Assembly (NCBI RefSeq): GCF_900452865.1
Contig: NZ_UGOZ01000001.1
Span: 1,178,001 to 1,242,000 of the forward strand
Origin: Legionella taurinensis
GTDB lineage: Bacteria; Pseudomonadota; Gammaproteobacteria; Legionellales; Legionellaceae
Direction of reading: 5' to 3'
DNA length: 64,000 nt
The first letter of the stretch is position 1, and the number at the start of each line of letters is the position of its first letter. The notes beneath the pieces are model-generated. The model was not told the origin of the DNA. It saw only the letters and a list, made by a program, of their open reading frames with translations, and did no database searches. Positions 37,343 to 52,534 of this stretch are shown one piece after another. Both the position numbers and the translations under genes were made by a program.

Positions 37343-38579
37343 CGCAGCGGGCGCTGCCGATTACCTCATTATCGGTGCCGGCATCATGGGCTTGAGTATT
37401 GCGCGCGAATTGCTTCATTCAGAGCCCAGAGCAAAAATAGTGGTCCTTGAAAAAGAAGTCGCCGTTGGCTTGCATGCCAGTGGTCGGAACAGCGGTGTGT
37501 TGCATTCGGGTATTTATTATCCTCAGGGCAGCCTGAAAGCTCAGGTTTGCCTGCAGGGCGCCCGATTAATGGCCGCGTATTGTGAAGAACATCGATTACC
37601 TCTCAATCGTCTGGGTAAAGTGATTCTGCCGGTCAAACCGGACGATCAGGCGGCGCTAACCTTGCTCCATGAGCGTGCCAGGGCCAACGGCGCGCGGGTG
37701 CAGATGTTTGATGCTAACGAGCTGCGTGACATCGAACCGGAAGCGTATACCGCGACAGGGCAGGCCCTTTTTTCGCCTGAAACCGCCGTCGTTGATCCGT
37801 TAGCCATTGTGCAGCATCTGTATTTCAGTTTAGAAAGGCAGGGGGTTGTTTTTCATTTTAATTGCAAAGGGTTGAGCATTGATACGCAGCGCCAGCAAAT
37901 CCATACGCAGGCGGGTTGCTTGAGTTATGGTTATTTGTTTAATACCGCCGGATTATTTGCGGATAAGATTGCAGAGCGGTGCGGTCTGGACAAACGGTAT
38001 GTGCTGTTGCCCTTTAAAGGGTTCTATTACGAGGTGGCTAAACACTCGGATTTAACCCTCAATCATTTGATTTATCCGGTACCGGATATGAATGTGCCGT
38101 TTCTCGGCGTTCATTTCACCAAAAGCATTTCGGGCAAAATATACATCGGACCGACAGCCATTCCCGCGTTTGGACGGGAAAATTACCGTGGATGGCAGGG
38201 GGCTAATCTGTCGGAATTGCTGAAGACAATGACGCTGTTGGGCCAGCATTATTATGCCAACCGGCAGGGCTTTCGCACTTACACGCATCAGGAAGTCCCC
38301 CGCCTTTTTAAATCCCGTTTTTTAAGCGCCGCCCGCAGTCTGGTGCCCAGGCTTAGGTCAAACGATGTCTTGCGCAGCAAGAAGGTGGGTATACGGGCGC
38401 AATTGTACGATCAGCAGAAAAAAGAATTGGTGATGGATTTTCTAATCTCCACCACCAAAAATGAAACCCATGTGTTAAATGCGGTGTCGCCCGCATTTAC
38501 CAGCGCATTCAGTTTTGCCAAAATGGTGGTCAACGAAAAAGAACGCCACCAGGCTGAGTTAATCAAGGAGTCAAGGTGA
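37323..38579 (+). CDS. FAD-dependent oxidoreductase, L-2-hydroxyglutarate oxidase (LhgO)-like
   Basis: A 418-residue DAO-family flavoprotein. The FAD-binding motif YLIIGAGIMGLSIAREL is at about 14-30, followed by the LhgO-type block LHASGRNSGVLHSGIYYPQGS and, later, LNTAG-like LFNTAGLFADKIA and PFKGFYYEV. Family members oxidise L-2-hydroxyglutarate to 2-oxoglutarate using the membrane quinone pool or oxygen. Because WbpB-type dehydrogenases can depend on 2-oxoglutarate/2-hydroxyglutarate for cofactor recycling, this enzyme could regenerate 2-oxoglutarate for WbpB and WbpE (inference). The only start upstream of the FAD motif is TTG 37323, inside the wbpI-like gene. Confidence 0.85.
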   Translation: MNTPAGNAAGAADYLIIGAGIMGLSIARELLHSEPRAKIVVLEKEVAVGLHASGRNSGVLHSGIYYPQGSLKAQVCLQGARLMAAYCEEHRLPLNRLGKVILPVKPDDQAALTLLHERARANGARVQMFDANELRDIEPEAYTATGQALFSPETAVVDPLAIVQHLYFSLERQGVVFHFNCKGLSIDTQRQQIHTQAGCLSYGYLFNTAGLFADKIAERCGLDKRYVLLPFKGFYYEVAKHSDLTLNHLIYPVPDMNVPFLGVHFTKSISGKIYIGPTAIPAFGRENYRGWQGANLSELLKTMTLLGQHYYANRQGFRTYTHQEVPRLFKSRFLSAARSLVPRLRSNDVLRSKKVGIRAQLYDQQKKELVMDFLISTTKNETHVLNAVSPAFTSAFSFAKMVVNEKERHQAELIKESR

Positions 38580-39586
38580 ATATTCGTGGTGCAAAAGTCT
38601 TAGTCATCGGCGGGGCCGGTTTTATTGGTGGATTTGTTGTCAGGGAATTGCTTAAAACCGATGTGGCCGAAGTCATCATTTATGATAATTTCACCCGCGG
38701 CAAACAGGCCAACATTCAAGACTGCCTGAAGGATCCCCGCTGCCAGGTGTTCCCTTACGGCGGCGATATACGGGAAACGGATGTACTGGATAAGGCATTT
38801 GAGGGGGTGGACTACGTTTTTCATCTGGCAGCCATGTGGCTTTTGCATTGCAAGGATTTCCCGCGCACGGCATTTGAGGTGAATGTTGCCGGAACCTTTA
38901 ATGTGCTGGAAGCCTGTGTCAAGCACAAGGTTAAAAAGCTGATCTATTCCTCCAGCGCATCCGTTTATGGCGATGCGGTGGAGGTGCCGATGACAGAAGA
39001 ACACCCGTTTAATAACAAGAATTTTTATGGTTCGACCAAAATTTCCGGCGAAGCCATGTGCACTGCCTTTTATGATCGATACGGCTTGCAGGTCATTGGC
39101 CTGCGCTACATGAATGTCTATGGTCCAGGCCAGGATCAACATGCCGTTTATTCCGGCGTTATTCCCATCATGCTCAATAAAATCGATGCCAATGAAGCCC
39201 CCACCATTAATGGCGATGGCAGTCAGGCTTATGATTTTATCTATGTCGAGGACGTGGCCCGGGCCAACCTCTGTGCGCTTCAATCAGAAACCGCTTATGG
39301 TTTTTATAATGTCGGAACAGAAGTGCAAACCACCATTAAGCAATTGTGTGAATTAATTCTTTCGCTGAAACAGTCCAGGCTCATGGTCAATTACAAGCCA
39401 TACAGCGCGGACGATGCCAGGCAGTTAGTGAAAAATCGAATCGGTTCGGTACAAAAAGCCCGTGAGGAAATTGATTTCCAATACCGCTACGATTTAAAAA
39501 CAGGGTTGGAAAAATTGATTCACTGGCGAAAGACCGGGCAATTTGAGTTTTCCACTATTCATCAATTACCTGAAGTAGTTTATTAA
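38576..39586 (+). CDS. NAD-dependent sugar-nucleotide epimerase/dehydratase
   Basis: A 336-residue extended short-chain dehydrogenase. The NAD site is GGAGFIGG (12-19), HLAA is at about 83-86, and the catalytic pair is Y151xxxK155 (FYGSTKISGE) with the serine in YSSSASVYG. The C-terminal LRYMNVYGPGQ and DFIYVEDVA motifs bind the sugar nucleotide. It resembles UDP-glucose 4-epimerase and related 4-epimerases or 4,6-dehydratases, but the substrate cannot be fixed. It starts at a GTG in a 4-base overlap with the previous stop. It is the last gene with the higher-G+C composition of the locus's first part. Confidence 0.88.
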   Translation: MNIRGAKVLVIGGAGFIGGFVVRELLKTDVAEVIIYDNFTRGKQANIQDCLKDPRCQVFPYGGDIRETDVLDKAFEGVDYVFHLAAMWLLHCKDFPRTAFEVNVAGTFNVLEACVKHKVKKLIYSSSASVYGDAVEVPMTEEHPFNNKNFYGSTKISGEAMCTAFYDRYGLQVIGLRYMNVYGPGQDQHAVYSGVIPIMLNKIDANEAPTINGDGSQAYDFIYVEDVARANLCALQSETAYGFYNVGTEVQTTIKQLCELILSLKQSRLMVNYKPYSADDARQLVKNRIGSVQKAREEIDFQYRYDLKTGLEKLIHWRKTGQFEFSTIHQLPEVVY

Positions 39587-39600
39587 GATCAAGGAACGTT

Positions 39601-40794
39601 ATGAAATACATACCAATAACCAAAGCGGTATTTGACGATACAGAAAAGTCAGAAATGATTAAGCCACTTGAATCAGGTTGGGTAGTTCAGGGTCCTTATG
39701 TTAAACAGTTTGAGCAAATGTTTGCAGAATTTACTCAGAGCAAATACGCCAAAGCTGTAAGTAATTGCACAACAGCATTGCATCTTGCCTTAGTGGCTTT
39801 AGGCATAGGGTCTGGCGATAAGGTGGTTGTACCGTCCTTTACTTATGTTGCCTCAGCCAATGCAGTAGAGTATACCGGCGCAGAAGTTGTCTTTTGTGAT
39901 ATTGACTTGAGCACATTCAATATCGATGTCAGGCAATTGGAAGAAATTCTTGCAACCGAAGCCAACATTAAAGCGATTATGCCAATCAATCTCTTTGGCC
40001 TGTGTGCTGATCTGCGTGAGATTAATCGCTTGGCTAAACAATATAACGTGGCGGTAGTCGAAGACTCTGCCTGTGGCTTTGATGCCTGGCTAGATGGTCG
40101 ACATTCAGGTACATTTGCAGAAGTGGGTTGTTTTTCCTTTCATCCACGTAAATCGATAACCACCGGTGAAGGCGGCATGTTAATCACCGATGATGAATCT
40201 ATTTATCAGAAAGTATCCCAATTGTGCGATCATGGTGCTTCAAAATCGGATTTGCAGCGCCATAGTGAAAAAGGGGGATCCTTGCTGCCTGATTTCACTA
40301 TGCGCGGTTACAACTACCGTATGACCGATTTCCAGGGCGCCTTGGGCGTTTGTCAGATGAGAAAAGCAAAACAAATCATGGAAGGGCGACGAAATATTGC
40401 TCAACAGTACAATGAAGCATTAAAAAACGCAGGTCTGGATTTGCCCTCTGTTGAACAAGGGTATATCCATGGGTATCAATCTTACGTCTGCCTTTTTTCA
40501 TTGGGGACTGAGCATGCGGATTTAACCATGGATAGAATTAATGCCTTGAATATCAAGCGTAACCATATGATGCAGATTTTGGAAGAAAACGGGATAGCAA
40601 CACGTCAGGGTACCCATGCTGTCCATACTCTTGATTATTATGCCAAAAGGTATCAATTGCGAGATGAGCAATACATTAATGCTTATGCAGCGGATAGACT
40701 AAGTATTGCATTGCCTCTGTATGCTCAAATGACTCCCGAAGAATTTGATTACGTGGTTCATCACCTGAGTGAGGCGATTCAGTGTGTGGCATAA
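39601..40794 (+). CDS. DegT/DnrJ/EryC1 PLP aminotransferase, possible WbpE
   Basis: A 397-residue sugar aminotransferase. The PLP lysine is K184 in FHPRKSITTGEGG; conserved NCTTALHLAL, VVPSFTYVASANAV and VVEDSACGF also fit. The HPRKxITTGEGG form is common in enzymes acting on 4-keto sugars such as perosamine synthase, yet the pathway begun by the WbpA/B/D/I-like genes needs a 3-aminotransferase (WbpE), and no other candidate is in the window. Either role is possible. AAGGAACGTT precedes the ATG. Base composition becomes clearly more AT-rich from this gene on. Confidence 0.88.
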   Translation: MKYIPITKAVFDDTEKSEMIKPLESGWVVQGPYVKQFEQMFAEFTQSKYAKAVSNCTTALHLALVALGIGSGDKVVVPSFTYVASANAVEYTGAEVVFCDIDLSTFNIDVRQLEEILATEANIKAIMPINLFGLCADLREINRLAKQYNVAVVEDSACGFDAWLDGRHSGTFAEVGCFSFHPRKSITTGEGGMLITDDESIYQKVSQLCDHGASKSDLQRHSEKGGSLLPDFTMRGYNYRMTDFQGALGVCQMRKAKQIMEGRRNIAQQYNEALKNAGLDLPSVEQGYIHGYQSYVCLFSLGTEHADLTMDRINALNIKRNHMMQILEENGIATRQGTHAVHTLDYYAKRYQLRDEQYINAYAADRLSIALPLYAQMTPEEFDYVVHHLSEAIQCVA

Positions 40795-42803
40795 CCGGCG
40801 TACTTTCGCTTTCTGCTGAACCTATCAACGTCAGTAAAATAAAGGCCATGTGTGATGCCATAGCCCATCGAGGTCCTGATGGTGCGGGGTATTTGTTGGC
40901 CCATACGGGAATAAATCACCCGCGTGGTCAACAGTACTACCAGGCCTTTACAGAGAAAAAATTCATCAATGAATCCGGATTAATTCCCTGCATCGATGAA
41001 CCACAGGCCGAGCATTATGTGCATCAACACCCTTGGAACGTGTTTTTGGGTCATCGGCGCCTCGCTATTCTGGATTTGTCATCGTCGGGTTTTCAGCCCA
41101 TCTGTGATTTATCAAAGAAAATATGGTTAACCTATAATGGTGAGATTTATAATTTCAAAGAAATCAGAAATGATTTGATTAAACTGGGTTATCAATTTTA
41201 TTCCAACACCGATTCGGAAGTGGTAGTTAATGCTTATCTGGAATGGGGGATTGAGTGCATCCATAAATTTAATGGAATGTTTGCTTTTGCATTATGGGAT
41301 AGAAGGCAAAACAAAGTGTTTTTAGCCCGTGATCGATACGGGATAAAGCCGCTGTATTACACGCGAATTGCAGGCAATCAATTTGTTTTTGGCAGTGAAA
41401 TAAAAGCGATTTTAGCGTATTTAAATGATAAACCTTCGCTTGATTTTGAAGGTTTGTATGAATATTTTACCTTTCAGAATTTTTTTACGTCCAAGACTTT
41501 ATTCAACAATATTACTTTACTGCCCCCGGGTCATTATTTGGAAATTAGTCTTGATAAAGACAGTAACATTTCGCAAACAGAATATTGGGATTTTAATTTT
41601 CGTGAGTCCACCGAAATTAAAAATGAAAATGAGTATGTCGAAGAATTACTTTATTTATTTGAACAAGCGGTTCACCGCCAACTCGTCAGTGATGTAGAAA
41701 TAGGTAGTTTTTTAAGCGGCGGTATGGACAGTGGTTCCATTACCGCCATTGCATCCCGTCAATTACCCTATATGAAAACTTTTACGGTTGGGTTTGATTT
41801 AACGCATGCATCGGGCATGGAATTGGGTTTCGATGAAAGAGCCAAATCGGAGCTCTTATCGTACATCTATAAAACAGAACATTATGAGATGGTGTTAAAA
41901 TCGGGTGATATGGAGCGTTGCCTGCCAAAATTTGCCTGGCATTTGGAAGAGCCTCGAGTTGGGCAAAGTTATCCTAATTATTATGCGGCAAAGCTAGCAG
42001 GAAAATTTGTTAAGGTGGTGTTATCCGGCGCAGGCGGCGACGAGTTGTTTGGTGGTTACCCCTGGCGATATTATCGTGCCGTAAAAAACGATAATTTCAC
42101 TGATTATGTTGATAAATATTATCAATTCTGGCAAAGACTCGTGCCGAACAGTGAATTAAAACAGCTCTTTTCCCCCATTTGGAATGACGTTTCTCACGTT
42201 TGGACGCGTGATATTTTTGAATCCGTATTTAAGCACCACTCTGAAAAGCTGTATAACGCGGAGGATTACATTAATCATTCGTTGTATTTTGAAGCTAAAA
42301 CCTTTTTACATGGCTTGTTGGTGATTGAAGACAAATTATCAATGGCTCATTCATTAGAAACCAGAGTTCCTTTTCTAGACAATGACCTGGTCGATTTCGC
42401 TCAAAAAATTCCAGTGAGTTTCAAATTAAACAATCTCCACGAGGTGTTAAGAGTGGATGAAAACTCTTTGGGAGACAAAGCCAAGAAATATTATCATAAA
42501 ACAAATGATGGTAAATTAATTCTAAGGAAAGCCTTACAGAAATACATGCCGCAGGACTATCTTACAGCAACGAAACAAGGGTTTTCGGCCCCTGACAATA
42601 TTTGGTTTAAGGGAGACAGTTTAAAGCTTATTCAACGCAATTTACTCAGTGAGGAAACGATGATTTATCGTTACCTGGATTCTAAAAGTGTAAACCATTT
42701 AGTGAATCAGCATTTGGAGGGGCAGGTGAATCGGCGCTTGTTAATCTGGTCACTGCTGAATTTTAACGAATTTATTAAAACGTTTCTTGCTGAATCGCAT
42801 TAG
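40782..42803 (+). CDS. Asparagine synthase-type glutamine amidotransferase, possibly sugar-uronate amidation
   Basis: A 673-residue AsnB-family protein. The N-terminal glutaminase uses Cys2 (start MCGITGVLSL), with LGHRRLAILDLS and WLTYNGEIYNF conserved. The C-terminal synthetase has the PP-loop SGGMDS (312-317) and GAGGDELFGGYP. In O-antigen and capsule loci such proteins (WbpS-like) are thought to turn sugar uronic acids into uronamides, which would fit the uronic-acid pathway here; asparagine synthesis is the alternative. The GTG start at 40782 overlaps the aminotransferase by 13 bp and is fixed by the need for Cys at position 2. Confidence 0.9.
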   Translation: MCGITGVLSLSAEPINVSKIKAMCDAIAHRGPDGAGYLLAHTGINHPRGQQYYQAFTEKKFINESGLIPCIDEPQAEHYVHQHPWNVFLGHRRLAILDLSSSGFQPICDLSKKIWLTYNGEIYNFKEIRNDLIKLGYQFYSNTDSEVVVNAYLEWGIECIHKFNGMFAFALWDRRQNKVFLARDRYGIKPLYYTRIAGNQFVFGSEIKAILAYLNDKPSLDFEGLYEYFTFQNFFTSKTLFNNITLLPPGHYLEISLDKDSNISQTEYWDFNFRESTEIKNENEYVEELLYLFEQAVHRQLVSDVEIGSFLSGGMDSGSITAIASRQLPYMKTFTVGFDLTHASGMELGFDERAKSELLSYIYKTEHYEMVLKSGDMERCLPKFAWHLEEPRVGQSYPNYYAAKLAGKFVKVVLSGAGGDELFGGYPWRYYRAVKNDNFTDYVDKYYQFWQRLVPNSELKQLFSPIWNDVSHVWTRDIFESVFKHHSEKLYNAEDYINHSLYFEAKTFLHGLLVIEDKLSMAHSLETRVPFLDNDLVDFAQKIPVSFKLNNLHEVLRVDENSLGDKAKKYYHKTNDGKLILRKALQKYMPQDYLTATKQGFSAPDNIWFKGDSLKLIQRNLLSEETMIYRYLDSKSVNHLVNQHLEGQVNRRLLIWSLLNFNEFIKTFLAESH

Positions 42804-42820
42804 TTATCAAGAGGTCTTTT

Positions 42821-43735
42821 ATGTTACCAAATTTTATCATTGGGGGAACTTCTGCAGGGGGAACGTCGTTTTTAACCTCCATCCTTCTTCAACATGGTGA
42901 TATTTATCTGCCAAAGAAAATGCGACCCGAACCCCATTTTTTTTATTATACCCATAAATATACCAATGGTATCGAATGGTACAAGCAGGAATGGTTTTCC
43001 GAATATGCTGGACAAAAAGCAGTAGGTGAACGCTCATCGTCTTATCTTTACCATGAAAACAGCGCGCTTAGAATTAAGCAACATCTCCCTGATGTAAAAT
43101 TAATTTTCGTACTTCGTCATCCAACGGAAAGAGCATGGGCCAATTACCGCTACACAGTACTGAGTGGTTTGGAAGAACTTGATTTTGAAGAAGCATTACG
43201 GTTAGAGTCCAAGCGTATTGAAGAAGAGGTAGGTATTTGGCAAGAGGTTCAACCGCACGATTATACAGGGCGTAGTTATTATGGTAAGCAAATCGAATTT
43301 TATTTAAAACTGTTCCCTTTTAGTCAAATTCTCTTGATTAGCTCTGAAAAATTGAATAATGATACCCAAAATCAGATTAATCGAATTACTGATTTTCTCG
43401 AAATCGAGCGTCTGGAGAATTTTGACATACCGGTTACATTCACTTCTCTGAGTGTTAATGAGCCTCGTGTTCAGGCACAATGCAGAATGGATTTGGGTGG
43501 TGACAAATTTAATCTGATCATTGAATCCATACGTCGAAAGGAAGATGATCTCAGCATTTATGCGGCTAATGAAGAGGAGCTGAGGGTAATTGAAAAATTA
43601 AAAAACAATCTGTCCGATAAAAAGCAGCCTTTGCTGGCCAGCACGAGGGATAAATTGAATAATTTATTTGCAGACGATCAAAAGAAACTGTTTTCTTTAG
43701 TCAAAAATCATGTGGATTTTGAGCCATGGCTTTAA
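42821..43735 (+). CDS. Sulfotransferase-fold protein, candidate phosphoramidate or sulfate transferase
   Basis: A 304-residue protein with both nucleotide-binding motifs of PAPS-dependent sulfotransferases. The 5' loop is GGTSAGGTSFL (8-18) and the 3'-phosphate motif is RHPTERAWANYRY (99-111). Two substitutions stand out: the usual Lys of the 5' loop is Ala12, and the usual Ser of RxPxxRxxSxY is Ala107. ERSSSYLYH matches the middle helix. It overlaps the CysC-like kinase gene by 10 bp. A simple reading is sulfation of a polysaccharide; given the neighbours, the donor could instead be a 3'-phospho-CDP-amidate, which has the same 3'-phosphate handle. No sulfate adenylyltransferase is in the window. 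Confidence 0.82.
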   Translation: MLPNFIIGGTSAGGTSFLTSILLQHGDIYLPKKMRPEPHFFYYTHKYTNGIEWYKQEWFSEYAGQKAVGERSSSYLYHENSALRIKQHLPDVKLIFVLRHPTERAWANYRYTVLSGLEELDFEEALRLESKRIEEEVGIWQEVQPHDYTGRSYYGKQIEFYLKLFPFSQILLISSEKLNNDTQNQINRITDFLEIERLENFDIPVTFTSLSVNEPRVQAQCRMDLGGDKFNLIIESIRRKEDDLSIYAANEEELRVIEKLKNNLSDKKQPLLASTRDKLNNLFADDQKKLFSLVKNHVDFEPWL

Positions 43736-44220
43736 TTTGGATTACTGGTTTTTCTGGTGCGGGTAAAACGACAGTTGCTAAAATTTTACAGGAAAAAATG
43801 ACCGCTGCAGGAAGTCATGCTGTCCTGCTGGACGGCGATGAACTTCGGAAAGCACTGGGTTATACCCAGCAGTATTCTCGCGATGAAAGGAAGCAAATTG
43901 CTTTCAAATACGCTCATCTTGCCAGTTTAATTGCCAAACAGGGCATCGATGTCATCGTCGCTACTATCTCGATGTTTGAGGAGGTTCGGACCTGGAACCG
44001 TCAGAATAACGCCAGTTATTTTGAAGTGTATATTAAAGTATCCGAGCAGGAGCGCCGAGCACGGGACCCAAAAAAACTATATGCATCCGGGCAGGATTTA
44101 GTGAGTGAGCAATCCCTCTATGAAGAGCCCCAAAACCCGGATGTTACTTTTGATGAAGAGCGGAAATTATCGCCTGAAGACATGGCAACAATAATACAAC
44201 AATCCATTTTCGAATTATAA
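43726..44220 (+). CDS. CysC-like nucleotide kinase, candidate cytidine diphosphoramidate kinase
   Basis: A 164-residue P-loop kinase annotated by family as adenylylsulfate kinase. Walker A is GFSGAGKTT (8-16), the DGDELR motif is at 36-41, and LYASGQ corresponds to the usual KGLYxKA region. The segment after SRDERKQIA lacks the ENIRR pattern of true APS kinases and has VIVATISMFEEVR. This matches the Campylobacter jejuni Cj1415 type, which phosphorylates the 3'-OH of cytidine diphosphoramidate. The neighbours supply the other Cj1416-Cj1418-like steps, so I prefer that role over PAPS synthesis. It overlaps the sulfotransferase-like gene. Confidence 0.85.
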   Translation: MALIWITGFSGAGKTTVAKILQEKMTAAGSHAVLLDGDELRKALGYTQQYSRDERKQIAFKYAHLASLIAKQGIDVIVATISMFEEVRTWNRQNNASYFEVYIKVSEQERRARDPKKLYASGQDLVSEQSLYEEPQNPDVTFDEERKLSPEDMATIIQQSIFEL

Positions 44221-44230
44221 GGAAAACGTT

Positions 44231-44998
44231 ATGCAACATGGTAGCTTTACCGGTCTGGCTAAAAATTATTCTTCTTATCGGCCTGGCTATTCACAATCAG
44301 TTCTTCGAGCCCTTTTATCACTGTTAAACAAACCCGTTGAAATGTGCCGATTTGCAGACGTAGGAGCAGGAACTGGCATTTGGACGCGAATGCTGGCGGA
44401 TACCAATCCTGAGATGATCATCGCTGTCGAGCCAAATGACGATATGAGAAAAACAGGGATTGATGATTCATGCGAAACCAAAATCGAGTGGAAGAAAGGA
44501 ACAGGAGAGGCGACAACCCTTGCTGATCAATCGGTGGATATGCTCTCAATGGCGAGCTCCTTTCATTGGGTTGATTTTAATGCTGGATGTGAGGAATTTC
44601 ATCGGGTTCTTAAAGAGAATGGCCGTTTTGTTGCTTTATGGAACCCGCGTTTAATCGAAGCCAATCCATTATTAAAAGAAACAGAGGATTATTTGCACGT
44701 CCTTAAACCTGACATCAAAAGAGTTTCTTCTGGAAGAACTGGTTTGGTTGACACATTAACGGAGCGTTTACAACAAAGTGGATTGTTCACGGATGTTGTT
44801 TATATTGAAGGAAAACATACGGTTTCGATCTCGCCGGAACAATACATCGGTGCTTGGCGCTCGGTCAATGATGTGCAATTTCAGTTAGGCAGTGAGAAAT
44901 TTGAAAAATTTATCCAGCATGTTGAACAGGCACTTGCAAAACACCACACAGTCGATGTGACCTATTTAACGCGAGCGTGGTCCGCACTTAAAGTGTAG
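44231..44998 (+). CDS. SAM-dependent methyltransferase in the phosphoramidate cluster
   Basis: A 255-residue class I methyltransferase with SAM motif DVGAGTG (43-49), acidic residue in AVEPNDDM, and MASSFHWVDF as motif IV-like region, the small-molecule methyltransferase pattern (FTGLAKNYSSYRPGY at the N-terminus). In C. jejuni two such genes (Cj1419, Cj1420) lie beside the phosphoramidate enzymes and are thought to supply the O-methyl group. Only one is present here. It sits between the CysC-like and PEP-synthase-like genes with 10- and 14-bp gaps, so it is in the same operon. Confidence 0.85.
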   Translation: MQHGSFTGLAKNYSSYRPGYSQSVLRALLSLLNKPVEMCRFADVGAGTGIWTRMLADTNPEMIIAVEPNDDMRKTGIDDSCETKIEWKKGTGEATTLADQSVDMLSMASSFHWVDFNAGCEEFHRVLKENGRFVALWNPRLIEANPLLKETEDYLHVLKPDIKRVSSGRTGLVDTLTERLQQSGLFTDVVYIEGKHTVSISPEQYIGAWRSVNDVQFQLGSEKFEKFIQHVEQALAKHHTVDVTYLTRAWSALKV

Positions 44999-45012
44999 CC
45001 GGGAGATTCAGA

Positions 45013-47319
45013 GTGACTTCAAAATCGCAAGTTTTGAATTCTTTAAAAAGCAAAATAAAAAAGGCAAGGATACTGGACCTGGTTTTTTTTACCGTTGAAG
45101 ATTGGTATAAAAATAAACAAGACTGCCTTGACAGAATCCACAATCAACTGAATACGACGAATTACATTGTGCGGAGCAGTAGCCGTAGTGAAGATCAGGA
45201 GCAAAGTTCCAATTCGGGTAAATATGAGTCTCTATTAAACGTCAGCCGGGATAATCTACCTGACGCCATTAATCAGGTAGTTGCTTCGTATGGTGAATAT
45301 GCTGATCCGCAAGACGAGATTCTTATTCAACCCATGCTTGAAGATGTGGTGATGAGCGGTGTTCTTTTCACTCGTGATCCTAATACGGGCGCCCCCTATT
45401 TTATTATTAACTATGAATTAGAGGGGGATACGACTGCAGTGACTTCTGGTGCATCGGCTGGCCATACTTACGTTATTGCAAGAAGCTGCAATGCTCTTCA
45501 GGATAAACGAATGCTTCGTTTACTGGATTTGGCAATCGAGTTGGAAGCCTTGCTGGGGCAACCTAACCTGGATATTGAATTTGCTTATGACAATAAAAAA
45601 CAATTATTTTTGTTGCAAGCCAGACCGCTCATTATAAAAAGTCTTCATAAGGAATTAGAACAGCATGCGCTGTTAAGTAAAATTAAAAAGAAATTTTTAA
45701 GTTTGAATGCGAAGCATCCCTATTTATATGGATCGCGAACAATTTTGGGGATTATGCCCGATTGGAATCCGGCAGAGATTATTGGCATTCGACCAAAACC
45801 GTTGGCATTAAGCCTTTATAAAGAGTTGATTACCGATAGCATATGGGCTTATCAACGAGATAATTACGGTTATAAGAATTTGCGAAGCTTCCCCCTGCTG
45901 ATTGATTTGATGGGGTTGCCCTATATCGATGTCCGTGTCAGTTTTAATTCATTTATTCCGAAAGATCTGGAGGCGGGACTTGCGGATAAATTAGTCAATT
46001 ATTACTTAGATCGGCTGGAGGAAGAACCCTTTCTACATGATAAGGTTGAGTTTGATATTGTCTTTTCCTGCCACACCTTTGATTTGCACAAGCGGGCTGA
46101 AAAGTTAAAAGCTTACCATTTTAACGACGATGAGATTGGTGCGATCGTTACCTCTCTTAAGAATTTAACCAATAATATTATTCATCGTGATCAGGGTTTG
46201 TGGATTAAGGACATTGAGAAAATCGAGGAGTTAAAGATTCGTCACGAGCGTATTTGCAACAATGATACCTTTGATGAATTAACCAAAATTTATTGGCTGA
46301 TTGAAGAGTGTAAGCGCTATGGTACGCTACCTTTTGCTGGATTGGCCCGCGCGGGTTTTATTGCCGTGCAATTGCTAAACTCCATGGTCGCTGAGGGAAT
46401 TTTAAGTGCTGATGAGCGATTCTGTTTTCTGAACAGCCTTGACTCGGTCAGCACCCAGATGACTCGTGACATGCAACAATTGGATAAACAGCATTTTCTG
46501 CAAAAATACGGTCATTTGAGACCTGGGACTTACGATATATTATCCCCCCGGTATGACGAAGAACCCAATCTCTATTTTGATTGGAATAAAATAAAACGCA
46601 TGACGTCTCATCAAAAGGACGATTTTAAATTGAGTCTCTCGCAGATGAGGCAGATTGAAACGTTGCTTGATGAGCAAGGTATTGAACACGATGTAGTTGG
46701 CTTGTTTAATTTTATGAAATTAGCCATTGAAGGGCGGGAATACGCAAAGTTTGTTTTTACAAAGACATTGAGCGATATACTTTCTATATTGAAGCAGTTT
46801 GGTTTAAAAAATAATATTCATGTGGATGAAATTGCCTACATGGATATTAAAGATCTATTAAAGCATTTTTCAACATCCTGGGATTGCATTGAGGAATTAA
46901 AAAGGAATATCCAGGTCAACATTGAAAAATATAAGATCACCAATCAGATTATCTTGCCTCCATTAATCGTAAAACCAGAGGATACAGAGCAGTTTACTTT
47001 ACCGGAAAGCAGACCCAATTTTGTGACTCGAAAGTCGCTGACTGCGCATGTGGTATCCGATCTCTCTGACCCTGAAAAAATGAACGGGGCGATTATTTTT
47101 ATCCCCAGTGCTGATCCAGGATTTGACTGGGTGTTTACTCATCAAATTGCTGGATTCATAACGGCTTACGGGGGCGTGAATTCTCACATGGCTATTCGTG
47201 CCGGCGAATTAGGCTTGCCAGCCGTCATTGGTACCGGTGACAAACTGTATAATCAATTGAAATCGGCTTCACGTATTCATATCGATTGTGGAAATCAACT
47301 CGTGGAGGTCCTGCATTGA
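45013..47319 (+). CDS. PEP-synthase-like kinase, candidate L-glutamine amide kinase (Cj1418-like)
   Basis: A 768-residue protein combining an ATP-grasp nucleotide domain (VRSSSRSEDQEQSSNSGKY near 54-72; VLFTRDPNTGAPY) with a C-terminal phosphohistidine swivel domain, GGVNSHMAIRAGELGLPAVIG (shown as GGVNSHMAIRAGE), catalytic His725. It has no PEP/pyruvate TIM barrel. This two-domain plan is that of Cj1418, which phosphorylates the amide nitrogen of glutamine with ATP through a phosphohistidine, the first step of O-methyl phosphoramidate synthesis. Size and position beside Cj1415-, Cj1416- and Cj1417-like genes support this. The start is GTG after GGGAG at 45001-45005. A central 400-residue helical region is unassigned. 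Confidence 0.87.
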   Translation: MTSKSQVLNSLKSKIKKARILDLVFFTVEDWYKNKQDCLDRIHNQLNTTNYIVRSSSRSEDQEQSSNSGKYESLLNVSRDNLPDAINQVVASYGEYADPQDEILIQPMLEDVVMSGVLFTRDPNTGAPYFIINYELEGDTTAVTSGASAGHTYVIARSCNALQDKRMLRLLDLAIELEALLGQPNLDIEFAYDNKKQLFLLQARPLIIKSLHKELEQHALLSKIKKKFLSLNAKHPYLYGSRTILGIMPDWNPAEIIGIRPKPLALSLYKELITDSIWAYQRDNYGYKNLRSFPLLIDLMGLPYIDVRVSFNSFIPKDLEAGLADKLVNYYLDRLEEEPFLHDKVEFDIVFSCHTFDLHKRAEKLKAYHFNDDEIGAIVTSLKNLTNNIIHRDQGLWIKDIEKIEELKIRHERICNNDTFDELTKIYWLIEECKRYGTLPFAGLARAGFIAVQLLNSMVAEGILSADERFCFLNSLDSVSTQMTRDMQQLDKQHFLQKYGHLRPGTYDILSPRYDEEPNLYFDWNKIKRMTSHQKDDFKLSLSQMRQIETLLDEQGIEHDVVGLFNFMKLAIEGREYAKFVFTKTLSDILSILKQFGLKNNIHVDEIAYMDIKDLLKHFSTSWDCIEELKRNIQVNIEKYKITNQIILPPLIVKPEDTEQFTLPESRPNFVTRKSLTAHVVSDLSDPEKMNGAIIFIPSADPGFDWVFTHQIAGFITAYGGVNSHMAIRAGELGLPAVIGTGDKLYNQLKSASRIHIDCGNQLVEVLH

Positions 47320-47909
47320 AACAGATCGGCATAACCATGCGGGTGGATTACCATGAAAAAGTGGATGAAAAGCGGGATGCTATCGACCAGCGCTGGTATA
47401 AATTTTTAAATGCCTGCCAACTATATCCCATTCCTATTCCTAACTTTATGACTGGCCTGGATTGCCTATTAACTCAAAATTGGGCTGGCTTTATCCTCAC
47501 AGGAGGAAATTCACCTGAGAGTCTCGGCGGAGATGCTCCAGAGAGAGATCAAATAGAGCAGGCTCTGATGGAGCTCGCTGTTAAAAAATCAATTCCCGTT
47601 CTCGGCGTTTGTCGCGGAATGCAGGTTATTCAGCACTATTTTGGCGTTAACCTCATTCCTGTGACGGAGCATGTCGCTGTTCGCCATACATTTCATTATC
47701 GTGGGAGTGTTGTCGATGTGAATAGCTACCATCATTTCGGTGCTTTGGATTCGGTTCCCAGCTTAATCGTGGATGGGCGTAGTGAGGACGGTGTTATTGA
47801 GGCTATTTCACATCAGTCATTACCGATCAAGGGCATCATGTGGCACCCAGAAAGAGAGGATACATTTTCTGCGGTTGATATAGAACTTTTTAAGAGCCAT
47901 TTTTGCTGA
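47316..47909 (+). CDS. Class I glutamine amidotransferase-like hydrolase, candidate gamma-glutamyl-CDP-amidate hydrolase (Cj1417-like)
   Basis: A 197-residue protein of the PuuD-like amidotransferase family. The nucleophile is C99 in GVCRGMQV and the dyad completing the triad is H177 and E179 in MWHPERED. LTGGNSPE (61-68) is the oxyanion strand. In C. jejuni, Cj1417 frees cytidine diphosphoramidate from its glutamyl adduct. The frame is open from 47286, but GGAGG at 47304-47308 sits seven bases before the TTG at 47316, which overlaps the previous stop (ATTGA) and gives the family-like N-terminus MKQIGITMR. I chose this unusual TTG start. Confidence 0.88.
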   Translation: MKQIGITMRVDYHEKVDEKRDAIDQRWYKFLNACQLYPIPIPNFMTGLDCLLTQNWAGFILTGGNSPESLGGDAPERDQIEQALMELAVKKSIPVLGVCRGMQVIQHYFGVNLIPVTEHVAVRHTFHYRGSVVDVNSYHHFGALDSVPSLIVDGRSEDGVIEAISHQSLPIKGIMWHPEREDTFSAVDIELFKSHFC

Positions 47910-48667
47910 TGAAGAAAGAATTATTGCGTTTGATTGAAGAGACAGGGGATAAAATTCTGTGTTTTTACGGAGATAAAACCTTTGATCTAAAAAAAGATGA
48001 CTCCCCGTTAACCCTTGCTGATCAAGCTTCCCACGATTATCTGGTTACACATTTACCACAAATTAAAAATGTTCCTATTTTATCTGAAGAATGTCATGTC
48101 GATTTTGATCAAAGAAAAAATTGGGAAGAGTTTTGGTTAATTGATCCGCTGGACGGGACGAAAGAATTCATCCATGGGTTTGATGATTTTTGTATCAATA
48201 TCGCTTTAATTCAACAAAATAAACCGGTCCTGGGATTAATTTATGCTCCGCTGCTGAAGGAGTTCTATTTCGCAGAGGAGGGGCGGGGATTTGAATATTT
48301 TGGCCCTGGCCATGAGCTTGAAAGGGATAGTGAATTGGTTGTTGCAACCAGTCGCTTTCATCATTCCGAACTGACAAGTCATTTTATGACTTTAAACAAT
48401 CTTTCCAAGGTTTATACCATAGGGGCTGCGCTTAAATTTGGCAGAATGGCGCTGGGTCAAATTGACCTCTATCCCCGCTTCGAGGGATCGAAAGAATGGG
48501 ATACGGGTGCCGGGCAACTTATTTTGATCGAGGCTAATGGCACTGTGCTCGACCTGCAGACGAGAAAATTACCCACATACAATAAATCAAACATAAGGAA
48601 TAATTTTTTTATGGCGTACAGGAATCATGTCGATATTAACCAGTTTTATTATCCGGATTTAGCATGA
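47909..48667 (+). CDS. cysQ: CysQ-like 3'(2'),5'-bisphosphate nucleotidase
   Basis: A 252-residue inositol-monophosphatase-superfamily enzyme. Metal ligands are visible in SEE (59-61) and DPLDGTKEF (79-87), with the CysQ-type WLIDPLDGTKEFIHG continuation and a C-terminal WDTGAGQLIL providing the last Asp. CysQ removes the 3'-phosphate of PAP after sulfotransfer. In this cluster it could clear the 3'-phospho nucleotide left after transfer from a 3'-phospho-CDP-amidate or from PAPS. The start ATG 47909 overlaps the previous stop by one base, and the 3' end overlaps the next start by four. Confidence 0.9.
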   Translation: MKKELLRLIEETGDKILCFYGDKTFDLKKDDSPLTLADQASHDYLVTHLPQIKNVPILSEECHVDFDQRKNWEEFWLIDPLDGTKEFIHGFDDFCINIALIQQNKPVLGLIYAPLLKEFYFAEEGRGFEYFGPGHELERDSELVVATSRFHHSELTSHFMTLNNLSKVYTIGAALKFGRMALGQIDLYPRFEGSKEWDTGAGQLILIEANGTVLDLQTRKLPTYNKSNIRNNFFMAYRNHVDINQFYYPDLA

Positions 48668-49377
48668 AAGCAATTATTTTGGCCGCAGGCCGCGGCAGCC
48701 GTATGGGTTCTTTAACTGAAGAAAAACCGAAGTGTTTGACAGCAGTGCATGGAAAACGGCTTATCGAGCATCAACTCGATGCATTGTCCGCTGCGGGAAT
48801 TAAAGAAATCGCTTTGGTCACTGGTTATAAGTCGGAGTGTTTGACTGGTTACGGAACGGTTCATTTCCACAATCCTCAATGGTCACAGACCAATATGGTC
48901 GCCTCATTATTGTGTGCAAGAACATGGCTTGAAGACGATGATTGTATAGTCAGCTATTCCGATATTTTTTATTCTGCAGACATAGTCAAAAAGTTACTCC
49001 AGTGTGACGATGAAGTATGCGTAAGTTATGATCCGCATTGGCTGGAATTATGGTCCAGACGATTTACACAACCCTTAGACGATGCCGAGACATTTCGCCT
49101 GGATGAGCACCATTATTTGCTGGAAATCGGTAAAAAAACGCTTATTATTGATGAGATTCAAGGGCAATACATGGGGCTTTTGAAATTTAGTAAAGAATTT
49201 TGGCGTCATTTCTTTAGTTCCAATGATGAAACAATTAATTTGAATAAAACGGATATGACCTCCTTTCTTCAACATTTAATTCTTAAAGGTTACAAAATCA
49301 AAGCCATTGCTAACTATGATTCTTGGGGAGAGATCGATCAGCCAGAAGATATTGATGCAGTAATGAGCGGGTTTTGA
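48664..49377 (+). CDS. Sugar-nucleotidyltransferase-fold enzyme, candidate phosphoglutamine cytidylyltransferase (Cj1416-like)
   Basis: A 237-residue NTP transferase. The nucleotide loop is ILAAGRGSRMGSLTEEKPKCL, here split as LAAGRGSRMG and EEKPKCL, and metal-binding Asp lies in SYSDIFYS. The segments LWSRRFTQPLDDAETF and DEIQGQYMGLLKFS resemble, from memory, Cj1416 of C. jejuni, which couples CTP with phosphoglutamine. Ordinary hexose-1-phosphate transferases lack these. It starts in an ATGA overlap with cysQ. It completes the set of four donor-forming activities in the cluster. Confidence 0.87.
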   Translation: MKAIILAAGRGSRMGSLTEEKPKCLTAVHGKRLIEHQLDALSAAGIKEIALVTGYKSECLTGYGTVHFHNPQWSQTNMVASLLCARTWLEDDDCIVSYSDIFYSADIVKKLLQCDDEVCVSYDPHWLELWSRRFTQPLDDAETFRLDEHHYLLEIGKKTLIIDEIQGQYMGLLKFSKEFWRHFFSSNDETINLNKTDMTSFLQHLILKGYKIKAIANYDSWGEIDQPEDIDAVMSGF

Positions 49378-49391
49378 TAAGGATTATGGGT

Positions 49392-50480
49392 ATGCTTTAT
49401 TTATTTATTTTACTCATCAGCAGTTTTGGATTTATTCTGGTACTGGACCCTTACGGTCTATATAGAAAAAATACAGAAAAAAAGCGATTACCTTACTACA
49501 CTTGGTACCATTATAATTTTATTAAAAAAGTTAAAGAAATTGATTTGGGATTGTTAGGCTCCTCAGCCATCAATTATTACAGTAAGGAGCCTTTTTTGAA
49601 GGAGGCTAATACTGTTTTTTTCATGGGAGTAGAAAGCTCCAATATCCACGAACACCTGGCATACGGCCGTTTGTTGTTTAAGAAAAATCCAAAAAAAATC
49701 ATCTTTTTTTATACTTTTTATGCCATGAACCCTTCGCGAGCTTTTCAACCGGAGTTCAAGGCCAATATGGTAAAAAATAATAATTTGTTAACCGATATTT
49801 ATTATCAGTATCTAACCCCGCGTCTTCTCAAGGATCTTTATCATGGTTTTCTAATCAAGTTAAAAAGGAAACCAGCCAAGCCGCAACTTTTTTTAAGCGA
49901 TGGAAGACGGACGCAATTGCATTATTTGAATCGCAAAGATTACGAGTTTGATGAAGTACTGGCTGATTATCTGGCGGCCATGTCCATTGATCCGCATTAT
50001 TACAACAGCGAGCGATTTAAACAACCCGATTCCATTGTTCCAGCATTCGAACTCGTCAGAGAGTTTAAGGAAGAAGCGGAGAGGATGGGGATTGAGATGG
50101 TGTTTGTGGCTACTCCTGTTTACAGAAGCACTCTCGCTCTGAAATATAGATTGGGTTTATGGGATACCTACACACGTTATCGTCAGGAGATGCTGAGGAT
50201 TGGCGAGTTCTATGATCTTAATCTCGATTTTGATTTAGTCACCAACAAGGATAATTGGTGGGATACGCACCATACTCGTCATGGGGATTATGTCAGTGAA
50301 CTGATTATTAACAAAGCGTATCTGGTCAATCAGACTAATCTGGAGAGTACGACCGAGCAACTTAAGCCTGTTCAGAAAGAACTGGACCAGGTTGATGCGT
50401 TGCTGACTCAGTATAAACGATGGGATTCCATGAAAGAGAGGGTTAATAAGCGGGTACAACAAACGCCCCCCCTGGGTTGA
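49392..50480 (+). CDS. Membrane-anchored SGNH/AlgX-like protein, unknown function
   Basis: A 362-residue protein with an N-terminal membrane anchor (YLFILLISSFGFILVL) and a large extracytoplasmic or periplasmic part. GLLGSSAINYY resembles the Ser block of SGNH hydrolases and WWDTHHTRHGDY could be the Asp-His block, as in AlgX, AlgJ and DltD proteins, which modify polysaccharides. I cannot assign a substrate. The stop of the previous gene is at 49375-49377. Of three possible starts (TTG 49374, ATG 49386, ATG 49392), the last is best spaced from AAGGA at 49379-49383. The neighbours suggest a role in polysaccharide modification. Confidence 0.75.
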   Translation: MLYLFILLISSFGFILVLDPYGLYRKNTEKKRLPYYTWYHYNFIKKVKEIDLGLLGSSAINYYSKEPFLKEANTVFFMGVESSNIHEHLAYGRLLFKKNPKKIIFFYTFYAMNPSRAFQPEFKANMVKNNNLLTDIYYQYLTPRLLKDLYHGFLIKLKRKPAKPQLFLSDGRRTQLHYLNRKDYEFDEVLADYLAAMSIDPHYYNSERFKQPDSIVPAFELVREFKEEAERMGIEMVFVATPVYRSTLALKYRLGLWDTYTRYRQEMLRIGEFYDLNLDFDLVTNKDNWWDTHHTRHGDYVSELIINKAYLVNQTNLESTTEQLKPVQKELDQVDALLTQYKRWDSMKERVNKRVQQTPPLG

Positions 50481-50498
50481 AGTATCATTCAAAGAACT

Positions 50499-50526
50499 CT
50501 TGCACCTCGTGGTGCTAGCTATATAA
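50499..50526 (+). promoter_or_regulatory. Sigma-70-like promoter inside the polysaccharide locus
   Basis: TTGCAC (50499-50504) and a perfect TATAAT (50521-50526) are 16 nt apart, in the 93-bp gap before the gene at 50574. A short hairpin (GCACC/GGTGC) overlaps the spacer. The sequence suggests a second transcription unit starts here. Confidence 0.6.
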
Positions 50527-50573
50527 TTAGCTGAGTGTATTTATGCTTATAGCGGAGTGGGTGGATAGATAAT

Positions 50574-51314
50574 ATGATGAACGAATATATTGCAAGTGAA
50601 TTCACCCTGACCGCCTATAAGGCCTTGTTAACTCTTGCTCAAACACGCTTTTGTTTTAAAAATTACTCCAATTTTCTCGACCATGATAATTTTTTGCTGC
50701 TAAGGCATGATGTGGATTTTTCTCTGGAACATGCCTTAAAAACTGCACGAATTGAACACGAGATGCAGATTGGAAGTACTTATTTTATTCATCTTCATAA
50801 CGAGTTTTACAATGCCCTTGATGTTGGCTCTCTTAAATTAATGAGAGAACTCTTGTCGTTGGGACATCATATAGGGCTTCATTTTGATGTTCACTATTAC
50901 AATATAAAAGGAAAAGAGGAATTAGAGTATTGGTTAGCATTTGAAAAATCCTTGATAGAGCGGGTATTGGATTGTCGCATTGATGTATTCTCTTTTCATA
51001 ACACCAATGATTTTACTATGGGTTGTGAAGAACATGATTACGCGGGCATGCTGAATACCTATTCTACTTATTTTAAAACGCAGGCGTCTTATTGCTCCGA
51101 TTCCAATGGGTATTGGCGATACAGAAAATTAGAGGAGGTATTATTAGATCCTGAAATCAAAAAATTACAAGTACTTCTACATCCCGAATGGTGGACTGAT
51201 GAGGAACTGATGCCAAGAGAAAAGGTATATCGCTGTGCTCAATATCGATTTGAGAGTACGGTTGCGAATTATGATCAAGCCCTTATTGATTTTGGCCGAT
51301 TAAATTTAAGCTAA
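50574..51314 (+). CDS. Polysaccharide deacetylase-like (NodB-type) protein
   Basis: A 246-residue protein resembling carbohydrate esterase family 4 proteins found in capsule and O-antigen loci. RHDVDFS (44-50) supplies the Asp-Asp metal motif, HHIGLHFDVHYY the metal histidines, and FSFHNTNDF and LLHPEWWTDEE the later catalytic blocks. These enzymes remove N- or O-acetyl groups from sugars. The protein may act on the cytoplasmic sugar or lipid-linked chain, as it has no signal peptide. Two ATGs overlap at 50574 and 50577. It follows a promoter at 50499 and is 5 bp from the next gene. Confidence 0.82.
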   Translation: MMNEYIASEFTLTAYKALLTLAQTRFCFKNYSNFLDHDNFLLLRHDVDFSLEHALKTARIEHEMQIGSTYFIHLHNEFYNALDVGSLKLMRELLSLGHHIGLHFDVHYYNIKGKEELEYWLAFEKSLIERVLDCRIDVFSFHNTNDFTMGCEEHDYAGMLNTYSTYFKTQASYCSDSNGYWRYRKLEEVLLDPEIKKLQVLLHPEWWTDEELMPREKVYRCAQYRFESTVANYDQALIDFGRLNLS

Positions 51315-51319
51315 TAAAA

Positions 51320-52534
51320 ATGCAATTTATAAAAAAATTTTTCAAGTCATCCATGCCCTGTACGGCCCCTAAGAAACGCAGTGTCGTATTTTACCGACAT
51401 AGTTACTACCATTTTTATTACTTGGCCAAAGCCTTGCGTAAACGTGGATGGGATGCGATTGTGGTCAATTTAGAACCGACAGATGGGATAAATGCCAATT
51501 TTTATCATGGCGAAGATATGAATTTATACGATGAGGATCCTGTCCAATTTAATAAAAACATAAAAAATTTTTTTCAAGAAGCCAAATCCAAATACCGTTT
51601 AATGCATTTTGCAGGAGATGGGTATCTTTCTTTTTTTCCAGGCAATACCACCAGCAACGAGCCTTCTGACATTATTGAATGGAAACAGGCTGGCAATAAA
51701 GTCGCCTACACCATCAGCGGTTGTAACAGCGGTATTTCCCAATCTTCAATTTCATCCTGGTCAATGGCAGACAACGGGTTAAAAGTCTGTGATCGTTGCA
51801 TATGGCAAAATAATGAAGAGGTATGCAGTGATGCCAAGAATCTCAGATGGGGAAAAAAAGTCAGTAATTACTGTGATTTAATCTTTACTGAAACGTTGCC
51901 TGCACTGGATTTTATGGGCGCAAAAAAAAATACCATACGCGAGCCAGTAACAACATGCCTGGATAGGACCATCTGGAGATCCAATTTATCGATACCACAC
52001 CATCATTGGGTTGATAAAAAAACAGAGGAAATTCTTATTTACCATGCAGTGGGCAACTATGACACACGACACTCGGAAACCCGAAATATCAAGGGGACGC
52101 CTTTTGTATTTGAAGCGATTGAACGCTTAAAAGCGGAGGGCTATCCTGTCAAATTAATGTTCATTACTAATCAATCGAATGAGGTGATTAAGTATTATCA
52201 GGCCCAGGCGGATATCATCGTCGATCAATTAAATTTCGGCCGCTATGGTGCCAATGCAAGAGAAGGGATGATGCTGGGCAAGCCTGTCATTTGCTACCTT
52301 AATCAATTCGAGTATAAAGAAGAGGATAAATTGCTTTCTTTACAGGAATGCCCTTTAGTTTCTGCAACCGAAGACTCTGTTTATAAGGAATTAAAAAATC
52401 TCATAGTCAATAAAGAATTGCGGTTGACGATCGGGAACGCAAGTAGAGAATACGCGTTAAAATGGCATGATGCAGAAGCCTGTGCTGAGCGATATGAAAG
52501 AATTTATGATGAACTCTTTAAGGAAACGCGTTAA
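51320..52534 (+). CDS. Glycosyltransferase, GT-B fold (group 1-like)
   Basis: A 404-residue cytoplasmic protein with an N-terminal Rossmann half (VVFYRHSYYHFYYLAKALRKRGWDAIVVN in pieces) and a C-terminal half carrying KGTPFVFEAIERLKAEGYPVKL and the acceptor/donor-binding stretch FGRYGANAREGMMLGKPVICY, in which an EGMMLGKP helix matches the E-x7-E-like motif of GT4/group 1 enzymes. A small cysteine group (VCDRCIWQNNEEVC) in the middle could bind metal. It is probably the enzyme that adds one residue of the repeat unit. It follows the deacetylase-like gene and ends a short unit. Confidence 0.82.
   Translation: MQFIKKFFKSSMPCTAPKKRSVVFYRHSYYHFYYLAKALRKRGWDAIVVNLEPTDGINANFYHGEDMNLYDEDPVQFNKNIKNFFQEAKSKYRLMHFAGDGYLSFFPGNTTSNEPSDIIEWKQAGNKVAYTISGCNSGISQSSISSWSMADNGLKVCDRCIWQNNEEVCSDAKNLRWGKKVSNYCDLIFTETLPALDFMGAKKNTIREPVTTCLDRTIWRSNLSIPHHHWVDKKTEEILIYHAVGNYDTRHSETRNIKGTPFVFEAIERLKAEGYPVKLMFITNQSNEVIKYYQAQADIIVDQLNFGRYGANAREGMMLGKPVICYLNQFEYKEEDKLLSLQECPLVSATEDSVYKELKNLIVNKELRLTIGNASREYALKWHDAEACAERYERIYDELFKETR

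Follow-up and report, generated by a model that had tools for sequence, protein, structure and literature searches.

Phosphorus-nitrogen bonds are rare in biology. In Campylobacter jejuni, the donor pathway for the O-methyl phosphoramidate (MeOPN) of the capsule comprises the enzymes Cj1415 to Cj1418, with Cj1421 and Cj1422 as transferases. The available text of PMC11800397 describes C. jejuni enzymes that yield cytidine diphosphate (CDP)-phosphoramidate 3'-phosphate from glutamine, adenosine triphosphate (ATP) and cytidine triphosphate (CTP), and states that Cj1419 and Cj1420 are without assignment; the transferases are described as carrying DUF2972 in the accessible part of PMC5808241. Excerpts of other papers report that the lipopolysaccharide (LPS) of Xanthomonas campestris and Shewanella carries phosphoramidate lacking the O-methyl group and place the P-O-CH3 protons of Campylobacter spectra at 3.6-3.8 ppm (PMC3907429), predict by structure an MeOPN cluster in Borgs, which are archaeal extrachromosomal elements (PMC12660748), and, for the Legionella longbeachae capsule, mention MeOPN by analogy only (PMC11419355). 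A 2022 article, in the portion available, still calls the glutamine kinase specific to C. jejuni (PMC9561416). The present work analyses a run of seven genes at positions 42821-49377 of a 64,000-nucleotide stretch of the Legionella taurinensis genome (contig NZ_UGOZ01000001.1, positions 1,178,001 to 1,242,000), hereafter the window, in comparison with these systems.

The seven genes are likely, and we hold this with good confidence, to encode a pathway to a nucleotide-phosphoramidate donor. Together they would both make and spend a donor resembling 3'-phosphoadenosine-5'-phosphosulfate (PAPS), in which phosphoramidate takes the place of sulfate; the confidence expressed belongs to the donor pathway, and the chemistry is deduced. 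The open reading frames (ORFs) form one tight run on the + strand, with successive spacings of -10, +10, +14, -34, -7 and -4 bp. A preliminary description of this DNA, which had seven adjacent genes overlapping or lying within about 14 bp of each other, was thus right, the largest gap being +14 bp, and its protein names agree with the Pfam and NCBIfam assignments. The genes, with the one that follows them, are:

42821..43735, + strand, sulfotransferase-fold protein of 304 aa, proposed phosphoramidyl transferase (PF00685, 6.5e-14; PF13469, 9.6e-10)
43726..44220, + strand, CysC-like kinase, Cj1415-like and proposed as 3'-kinase of cytidine diphosphoramidate (PF01583, 3e-31; NF004041, 151.8 bits, cut-off 127)
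44231..44998, + strand, S-adenosylmethionine-dependent methyltransferase, proposed to O-methylate phosphoramidate before or after transfer (PF08241, 8.3e-14)
45013..47319, + strand, candidate L-glutamine kinase, Cj1418-like (NF004508, 981.7 bits, cut-off 501; PF01326, PF00391)
47286..47909, + strand, class-I glutamine-amidotransferase-fold (C26) hydrolase, proposed gamma-glutamyl-CDP-amidate hydrolase, Cj1417-like (NF045546, 115.1 bits, cut-off 250)
47903..48667, + strand, CysQ-like 3'-phosphatase, which would remove the cytidine 3',5'-bisphosphate left by the transfer step (TIGR01331, 203 bits, cut-off 228.8)
48664..49377, + strand, candidate CTP:phosphoglutamine cytidylyltransferase, Cj1416-like (PF12804, 1.5e-21)
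49374..50480, + strand, uncharacterised 368-aa protein with an N-terminal hydrophobic stretch, its gene overlapping that of the cytidylyltransferase by 4 bp

Judged by its orthologue in a congener (locus L034), the true start of the hydrolase is probably near 47316 rather than 47286.

In the proposed mechanism, the kinase would phosphorylate the amide nitrogen of glutamine, by homology to the characterised C. jejuni enzyme, and homology to C. jejuni enzymes likewise suggests the next three steps, whereby the cytidylyltransferase would join the phosphoglutamine to cytidine monophosphate derived from CTP, the hydrolase would take off glutamate to leave cytidine diphosphoramidate, and the CysC-like kinase would place a 3'-phosphate on the latter. 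Gene context points to the remaining steps: the sulfotransferase-fold protein would attach the phosphoramidate to a hydroxyl group on a sugar of the polysaccharide that the surrounding genes encode, freeing cytidine 3',5'-bisphosphate, from which CysQ would strip the 3'-phosphate, and the methyltransferase would O-methylate the phosphoramidate group. The transfer by the sulfotransferase-fold protein and the recycling by CysQ we regard as good inferences.

On this reading the window has the same four enzyme types as the C. jejuni pathway, but it differs from it in gene order and in the addition of a CysQ, a methyltransferase within the operon and a sulfotransferase-fold gene. The sulfotransferase-fold protein has no DUF2972 match in Pfam at E 0.001, and neither this protein nor CysQ has a named counterpart in the available text of the cited descriptions; the two suggest a pathway ending other than that of C. 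jejuni. The Borg cluster includes, in a surface-decoration region, a CTP:phosphoglutamine cytidylyltransferase, for which the window has a candidate, but it belongs to archaeal elements, and the accessible part of PMC12660748 names neither a sulfotransferase nor a CysQ for it.

Relatives of the kinase were sought in reference genomes by means of two peptide patterns, and at least 532 stretches (of at least 590 candidates) encode one as confirmed by tblastn at E 1e-3. The best 80 of these, together with loci L033, L034 and the window itself, make up the set of 83 loci used here, and counts within it describe the relatives of the window rather than bacteria at large. Genes found within 6 kb of the kinase are the hydrolase (82 loci), the cytidylyltransferase (80), the methyltransferase (67), CysC (62) and CysQ (16); in the 53 loci whose sequence continues for over 4 kb to either side, the corresponding numbers are 52, 53, 45, 47 and 9. 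The hydrolase count comes from a search of all ORFs, simple gene calling having found 64. The cassette CysC-methyltransferase-kinase-hydrolase-(CysQ)-cytidylyltransferase is met repeatedly, its loci spanning 13 phylum-level groups. Pseudomonadota, Acidobacteriota and Verrucomicrobiota each fall into separate parts of the kinase tree, a sign of horizontal transfer though no proof of it (L033 was omitted from a second kinase tree for its long branch). A full-length kinase occurs in 2 of the 11 genomes of the window's genus, and a kinase above the cut-off in 2 of the 274 genomes of the class sample; the nearest relatives outside the genus, among the matches listed, are metagenome-assembled genomes of Holosporales (57-58%). 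The congener L034 has an orthologous locus with the same gene order and a kinase 72% identical to that of the window, L067 (Dechloromonas sp. SSD3) retains most of the window neighbourhood with its order unchanged, and unrelated bacteria repeat a large part of the gene order; the arrangement in the window is therefore not a product of chance.

The kinase consists of a PPDK_N ATP-binding domain, a central region and a phosphohistidine-type mobile domain with His725, and this domain together with a score well over the NF004508 cut-off places it among glutamine kinases of the PRK05849/Cj1418 type; Cj1418 itself we take to be a member of NF004508. His725 and R54-S55-S56 are invariant in 83/83 loci. 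For the hydrolase, the best NCBIfam model is that of gamma-glutamyl-CDP-amidate hydrolase (NF045546), the next model scoring 48 bits, and the same model matches all 45 cassette hydrolases scanned (of 82); Cys109, His187 and Glu189 are invariant throughout the 82. The nearest Protein Data Bank (PDB) match of the nucleotidyltransferase is 1jyk, a CTP:phosphocholine cytidylyltransferase, and no NCBIfam model specific to it is among the matches listed (25 of 40). Its Arg13 and Lys23 are present in 80/80 and its Asp100 in 79/80, and these appear, by position, to match R16, K26 and D112, the active-site residues named for the CTP:phosphoglutamine cytidylyltransferase family in the available text of PMC12275187.

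The preliminary description had read the genes as a nucleotide-phosphoramidate donor pathway, and this reading is supported by NF004508, by NF045546 as the best model, by 1jyk as the nearest structure and by a distinct CysC subfamily (see below). The catalytic residues of the kinase, hydrolase and cytidylyltransferase are conserved across the cassette loci. No Campylobacter locus is among the best 80 of the at least 532 kinase stretches, and the bridge to C. jejuni therefore rests on family models and the described pathway; PDB searches with the core proteins gave no Cj1415-1418 entry among the matches named. A core of the Cj1415-1418 type finds support in the family models, the conserved residues and the gene order. 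The gene order is exemplified by L033, whose kinase is only 36% identical to that of the window and whose genes run kinase-hydrolase-cytidylyltransferase-CysC, that is, 1418-1417-1416-1415.

It is quite improbable that the gene set makes some other N-phosphoryl or cytidylyl product, such as a CDP-activated amino acid or another metabolite derived from phosphoglutamine. The hydrolase and cytidylyltransferase are tied only distantly to characterised models, and Cj1416 is promiscuous in vitro with manganese (PMC12275187, as far as available), both of which would leave room for such a product; but the kinase is well over its family cut-off, the core families are kept together over the 13 phylum-level groups, and the hydrolase triad, which would free the amide from glutamate, shows no exception.

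The donor pathway is further marked by its CysC. The P-loop residues G13/K14 and the D36-G37-D38 motif are found in 62/62 cassette proteins, but the substrate loop reads S-x-F..W-N-R (S-M-F in the window) instead of the S-P-F..R of adenosine 5'-phosphosulfate (APS) kinase, and the window protein thus lacks the S-P-[F/Y] loop of CysC proper. The loop Pro is present in 1 of the 62 cassette proteins compared with 30/30 APS-kinase controls, which carry S-P-F/Y/L, and Asn91 in 60/62 compared with 0/30, the controls having Val or Ala there; these controls are the best-scoring loci of the class sample and include the window genome's own CysNC. Cassette CysC is a subfamily distinct from APS kinase, and its altered loop fits a changed nucleotide substrate, for which cytidine diphosphoramidate is the candidate. 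Eight cassette CysC proteins are without the W90-N91 pair, and seven of them come from nine loci in which the cassette is flanked by a gene of a formyltransferase-like group, with a weak match to PF00551 that falls short of the cut-off (L036, L041-L044, L107, L112, L033 and L085); these loci perhaps represent a third kind of pathway ending.

About 0.6 Mb from the cassette, the window genome encodes CysD and CysNC of the canonical kind, and the cassette CysC is therefore not needed for PAPS; sulfate assimilation as its role is ruled out by these genes and by the distinct subfamily. The expectation that the genome would be without any PAPS synthesis was wrong, CysD and CysNC being encoded. A search of the genome with PF01507 gave no further protein besides CysD, PAPS reductase for instance, and PAPS may here serve sulfation in preference to cysteine synthesis. 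The CysD and CysNC fusion genes (L117:8257-11072, approximately 1.839-1.842 Mb) are near integrase-like and IS3-type transposase-like genes, and beside them is a large protein (L117:12582-14786, - strand) with a C-terminal portion resembling a protein kinase.

As for the transfer step, an unlabelled grouping of genes up to two places from the cassette gave the sulfotransferase family as its largest group (16 loci); farther from the cassette, genes for aminotransferases and epimerase-like proteins are more frequent. An iterated profile that included the window protein (E < 1e-5) found 32 sulfotransferase-fold genes in 28/83 loci, all 32 within 1.5 kb of a cassette gene and 26 of them within 300 bp, a distance at which 133 of the 636 non-core genes of at least 250 aa (sulfotransferases included) are found. 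The L033 sulfotransferase-fold gene matches PF00685 but scored 1.2e-4 with this profile and stands outside the 28 loci. A second family, resembling glycerophosphotransferases, contributes 23 genes in 22/83 loci; among the 21 members scanned, PF04464 matches 10 and has no match at E 0.01 in 11. The two families occur together in none of the loci (hypergeometric 1.9e-5, a value that ignores relatedness), and on the kinase tree of 82 rows their labels need 17 (sulfotransferase) and 10 (glycerophosphotransferase) changes, of which at least 10 and at least 6 fall on supported branches. We read them as two interchangeable candidate transferases, a reading drawn from gene neighbourhoods. The likeness to the CDP-glycerol glycerophosphotransferases (TagF-like, PF04464) lies in this partial match to the family and in the cytidine nucleotide that both chemistries would presumably free; unlike loci with this family, the window's gene run shows no such gene. 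A tie of the glycerophosphotransferases to MeOPN by way of PMC8949473 was dropped, as the CGPTase of that paper differs from the MeOPN transferase named in its figure legend, in the part available.

The proposed system as a whole follows the logic of the PAPS system (CysNC/CysC, sulfotransferase and CysQ), combining a nucleotide donor that is phosphorylated at the 3' position with an enzyme of the sulfotransferase fold and a 3'-phosphatase, but differs from it in the CysC loop, in the distance of CysD/CysNC from the cassette and in the sulfotransferase loop. In the proteins of the window type (those of the window, L034 and L067), the position that we take to be that of the 5'-phosphosulfate-binding loop is Ala12 in 3/3, whereas the 29 homologues of the class sample have Lys (25) or Arg (4), the residues of PAPS-dependent sulfotransferases. 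In what we likewise take to be the 3'-phosphate motif (R..P..R..S), Arg99 is kept in 3/3 and the Ser position is Ala107, again Ala in 3/3, with Ser in 25 and Ala in 4 of the 29 controls.

An unlikely alternative accepts the donor pathway as described, but makes this protein a PAPS-dependent sulfotransferase acting on the same polysaccharide and fed by CysD/CysNC, with CysQ clearing 3'-phosphoadenosine 5'-phosphate. Since CysD and CysNC are encoded, and PAPS reductase was not found, an ordinary sulfotransferase is conceivable; the nearest PDB structures are 3rnl and heparan sulfate 3-O-sulfotransferases, Arg99 is retained, and the window CysQ resembles the CysQ structure 3b8b (9e-40). The loop Ala in all three window-type proteins, the exchange of the motif Ser, and the closeness of the sulfotransferase-fold genes to the cassette, never with the other candidate transferase, speak against it.

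The preferred reading, of a phosphoramidyl transferase, would leave a 3'-phosphorylated nucleotide after transfer, and CysQ is the partner expected in that case. CysC is present in 15/16 loci with CysQ compared with 47/67 loci without it. The residues E62, D81, D84 and T86 of CysQ are found in 16/16 and D200 in 15/16, and the window genome contains one other match to its CysQ, at 52 bits.

It is plausible that the cassette methyltransferase O-methylates the phosphoramidate. Its gene is immediately upstream of the kinase in 45 of the 67 loci that have it within 6 kb, a placement more in keeping with a role in the donor pathway than with action on a particular sugar. A doubtful, though possible, alternative is that the pathway stops at the unmethylated phosphoramidate, as in the LPS of Xanthomonas and Shewanella, and that the methyltransferase acts on a sugar or other acceptor. 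In its favour, two sequence types of methyltransferase accompany the cassette (compared with the window protein, they score 182-329 and 58-106 bits outside the window genus), and the closest solved relative, HvrF, matches at just 49 bits.

Several points weigh against the proposed pathway or its individual steps. The likeness to Cj1415-1418 is drawn from family models and the published pathway; the window hydrolase is far under the NF045546 cut-off, CysQ slightly under the equivalog cut-off of TIGR01331, and the NCBIfam model matched by cassette CysC, NF004041, is named 'adenylyl-sulfate kinase'. Six loci with full flanks are without a nearby CysC, and two of these (L073 and L081) have a sulfotransferase-fold gene. 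The genome probably makes PAPS by itself, so that its sulfotransferase-fold protein could be an ordinary sulfotransferase. Other cassette sulfotransferase-fold proteins, in the segments viewed, often show Arg or Ser, among other residues, at the loop position, which makes the loop Ala specific to the window type (three sequences, one from a congener); the loss of the loop Lys as a rule for all cassette sulfotransferases was ruled out, many having Arg or Ser. DUF2972 is matched by 0/10 cassette sulfotransferase-fold proteins scanned, and a tie to Cj1421/1422 through this domain was rejected. The exclusion between the two transferase families was calculated without regard to kinship of the loci, and 33/83 loci have neither candidate, partly since contigs end.

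The same-strand run of the window extends beyond the seven genes, from 37323 to 52534 with a largest gap of 93 bp, and holds an FAD-dependent oxidoreductase, an asparagine-synthase-like amidotransferase, an epimerase-like protein and a DegT-type aminotransferase (the last two labelled from sequence reading and homologues), as well as a protein whose glycosyltransferase match falls short of the cut-off. The - strand encodes, at 60148-63306, an ABC-2 transporter with two ATPases, and the region is a surface-polysaccharide locus. The 368-aa protein at 49374-50480 matches neither Pfam nor NCBIfam models at E 0.001; its orthologue in L034 is 63% identical, and phmmer at E 1e-4 among the other studied loci found this orthologue only. 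The gene possibly belongs to the same operon as the cassette. DotI/IcmL is encoded in the window genome (3.15 Mb) and in its ten congeners (11/11), and a second contig of the genome has a transposase gene 72-74% identical to those of Legionella adelaidensis.

The cassette also appears in settings of other kinds. Its bearers include Chitinibacter tainanensis (L056) and an environmental isolate of Pseudomonas putida, GM4FR (L049). In six Pseudomonas-type loci (L040-L044 and L046), a FlgK gene is near the cassette in all six and a flagellin-type gene in five, which hints that phosphoramidate decorates flagellin glycans there. The kinase is encoded on plasmids as well, in Azospirillum, Vibrio, Cupriavidus, Agrobacterium and others, coverage reaching 80% or more in 14 records. 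An unannotated 9.5-kb record from human faeces, filed as Bacteriophage sp. (MT837632.1:676-3006), encodes a full-length homologue of 32.5% identity; it is perhaps bacterial DNA filed in the wrong place. For the neighbouring genes, Pfam assignments were tallied over 104 genes, of which 102 are identical to one of 177 group representatives, and over 10 more scanned singly, and L067 was omitted from alignment A5 owing to one ambiguous base.

The preliminary description had proposed an MeOPN pathway outside Campylobacter, perhaps undescribed. A donor cassette outside Campylobacter is indeed present, but it is not exceptional: the cassette is widespread, and since phosphoramidates (PMC3907429) and a predicted cluster (PMC12660748) outside Campylobacter are already in print, as the available parts of these sources indicate, the kind was known. 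In the open-licence PubMed Central literature, a scope that leaves out the primary biochemical papers on the pathway, neither the PAPS-like variant nor the interchange of transferases was found; the sulfotransferase-fold and glycerophosphotransferase neighbours and the window-type loop Ala were likewise not found in the open-licence literature.

On balance we lean, by a small measure, towards regarding surface phosphoramidation as a widespread and probably horizontally mobile system, a cytidine-based counterpart of the PAPS economy, whereby a 3'-phospho-CDP-phosphoramidate donor would be used by a sulfotransferase-fold phosphoramidyl transferase (in the window type without the loop Lys) and the resulting cytidine 3',5'-bisphosphate recycled by CysQ, a glycerophosphotransferase-like transferase replacing the sulfotransferase elsewhere and never standing beside it. 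Proposed assignments are thereby offered for steps left open in the C. jejuni papers, as far as their available text goes, namely the fold that transfers the group, the enzyme that methylates it and the reason for the 3'-phosphate of the donor. To judge by the cassette, surface sugars would seem to be phosphoramidated in many phyla, in environmental as well as host-associated bacteria.

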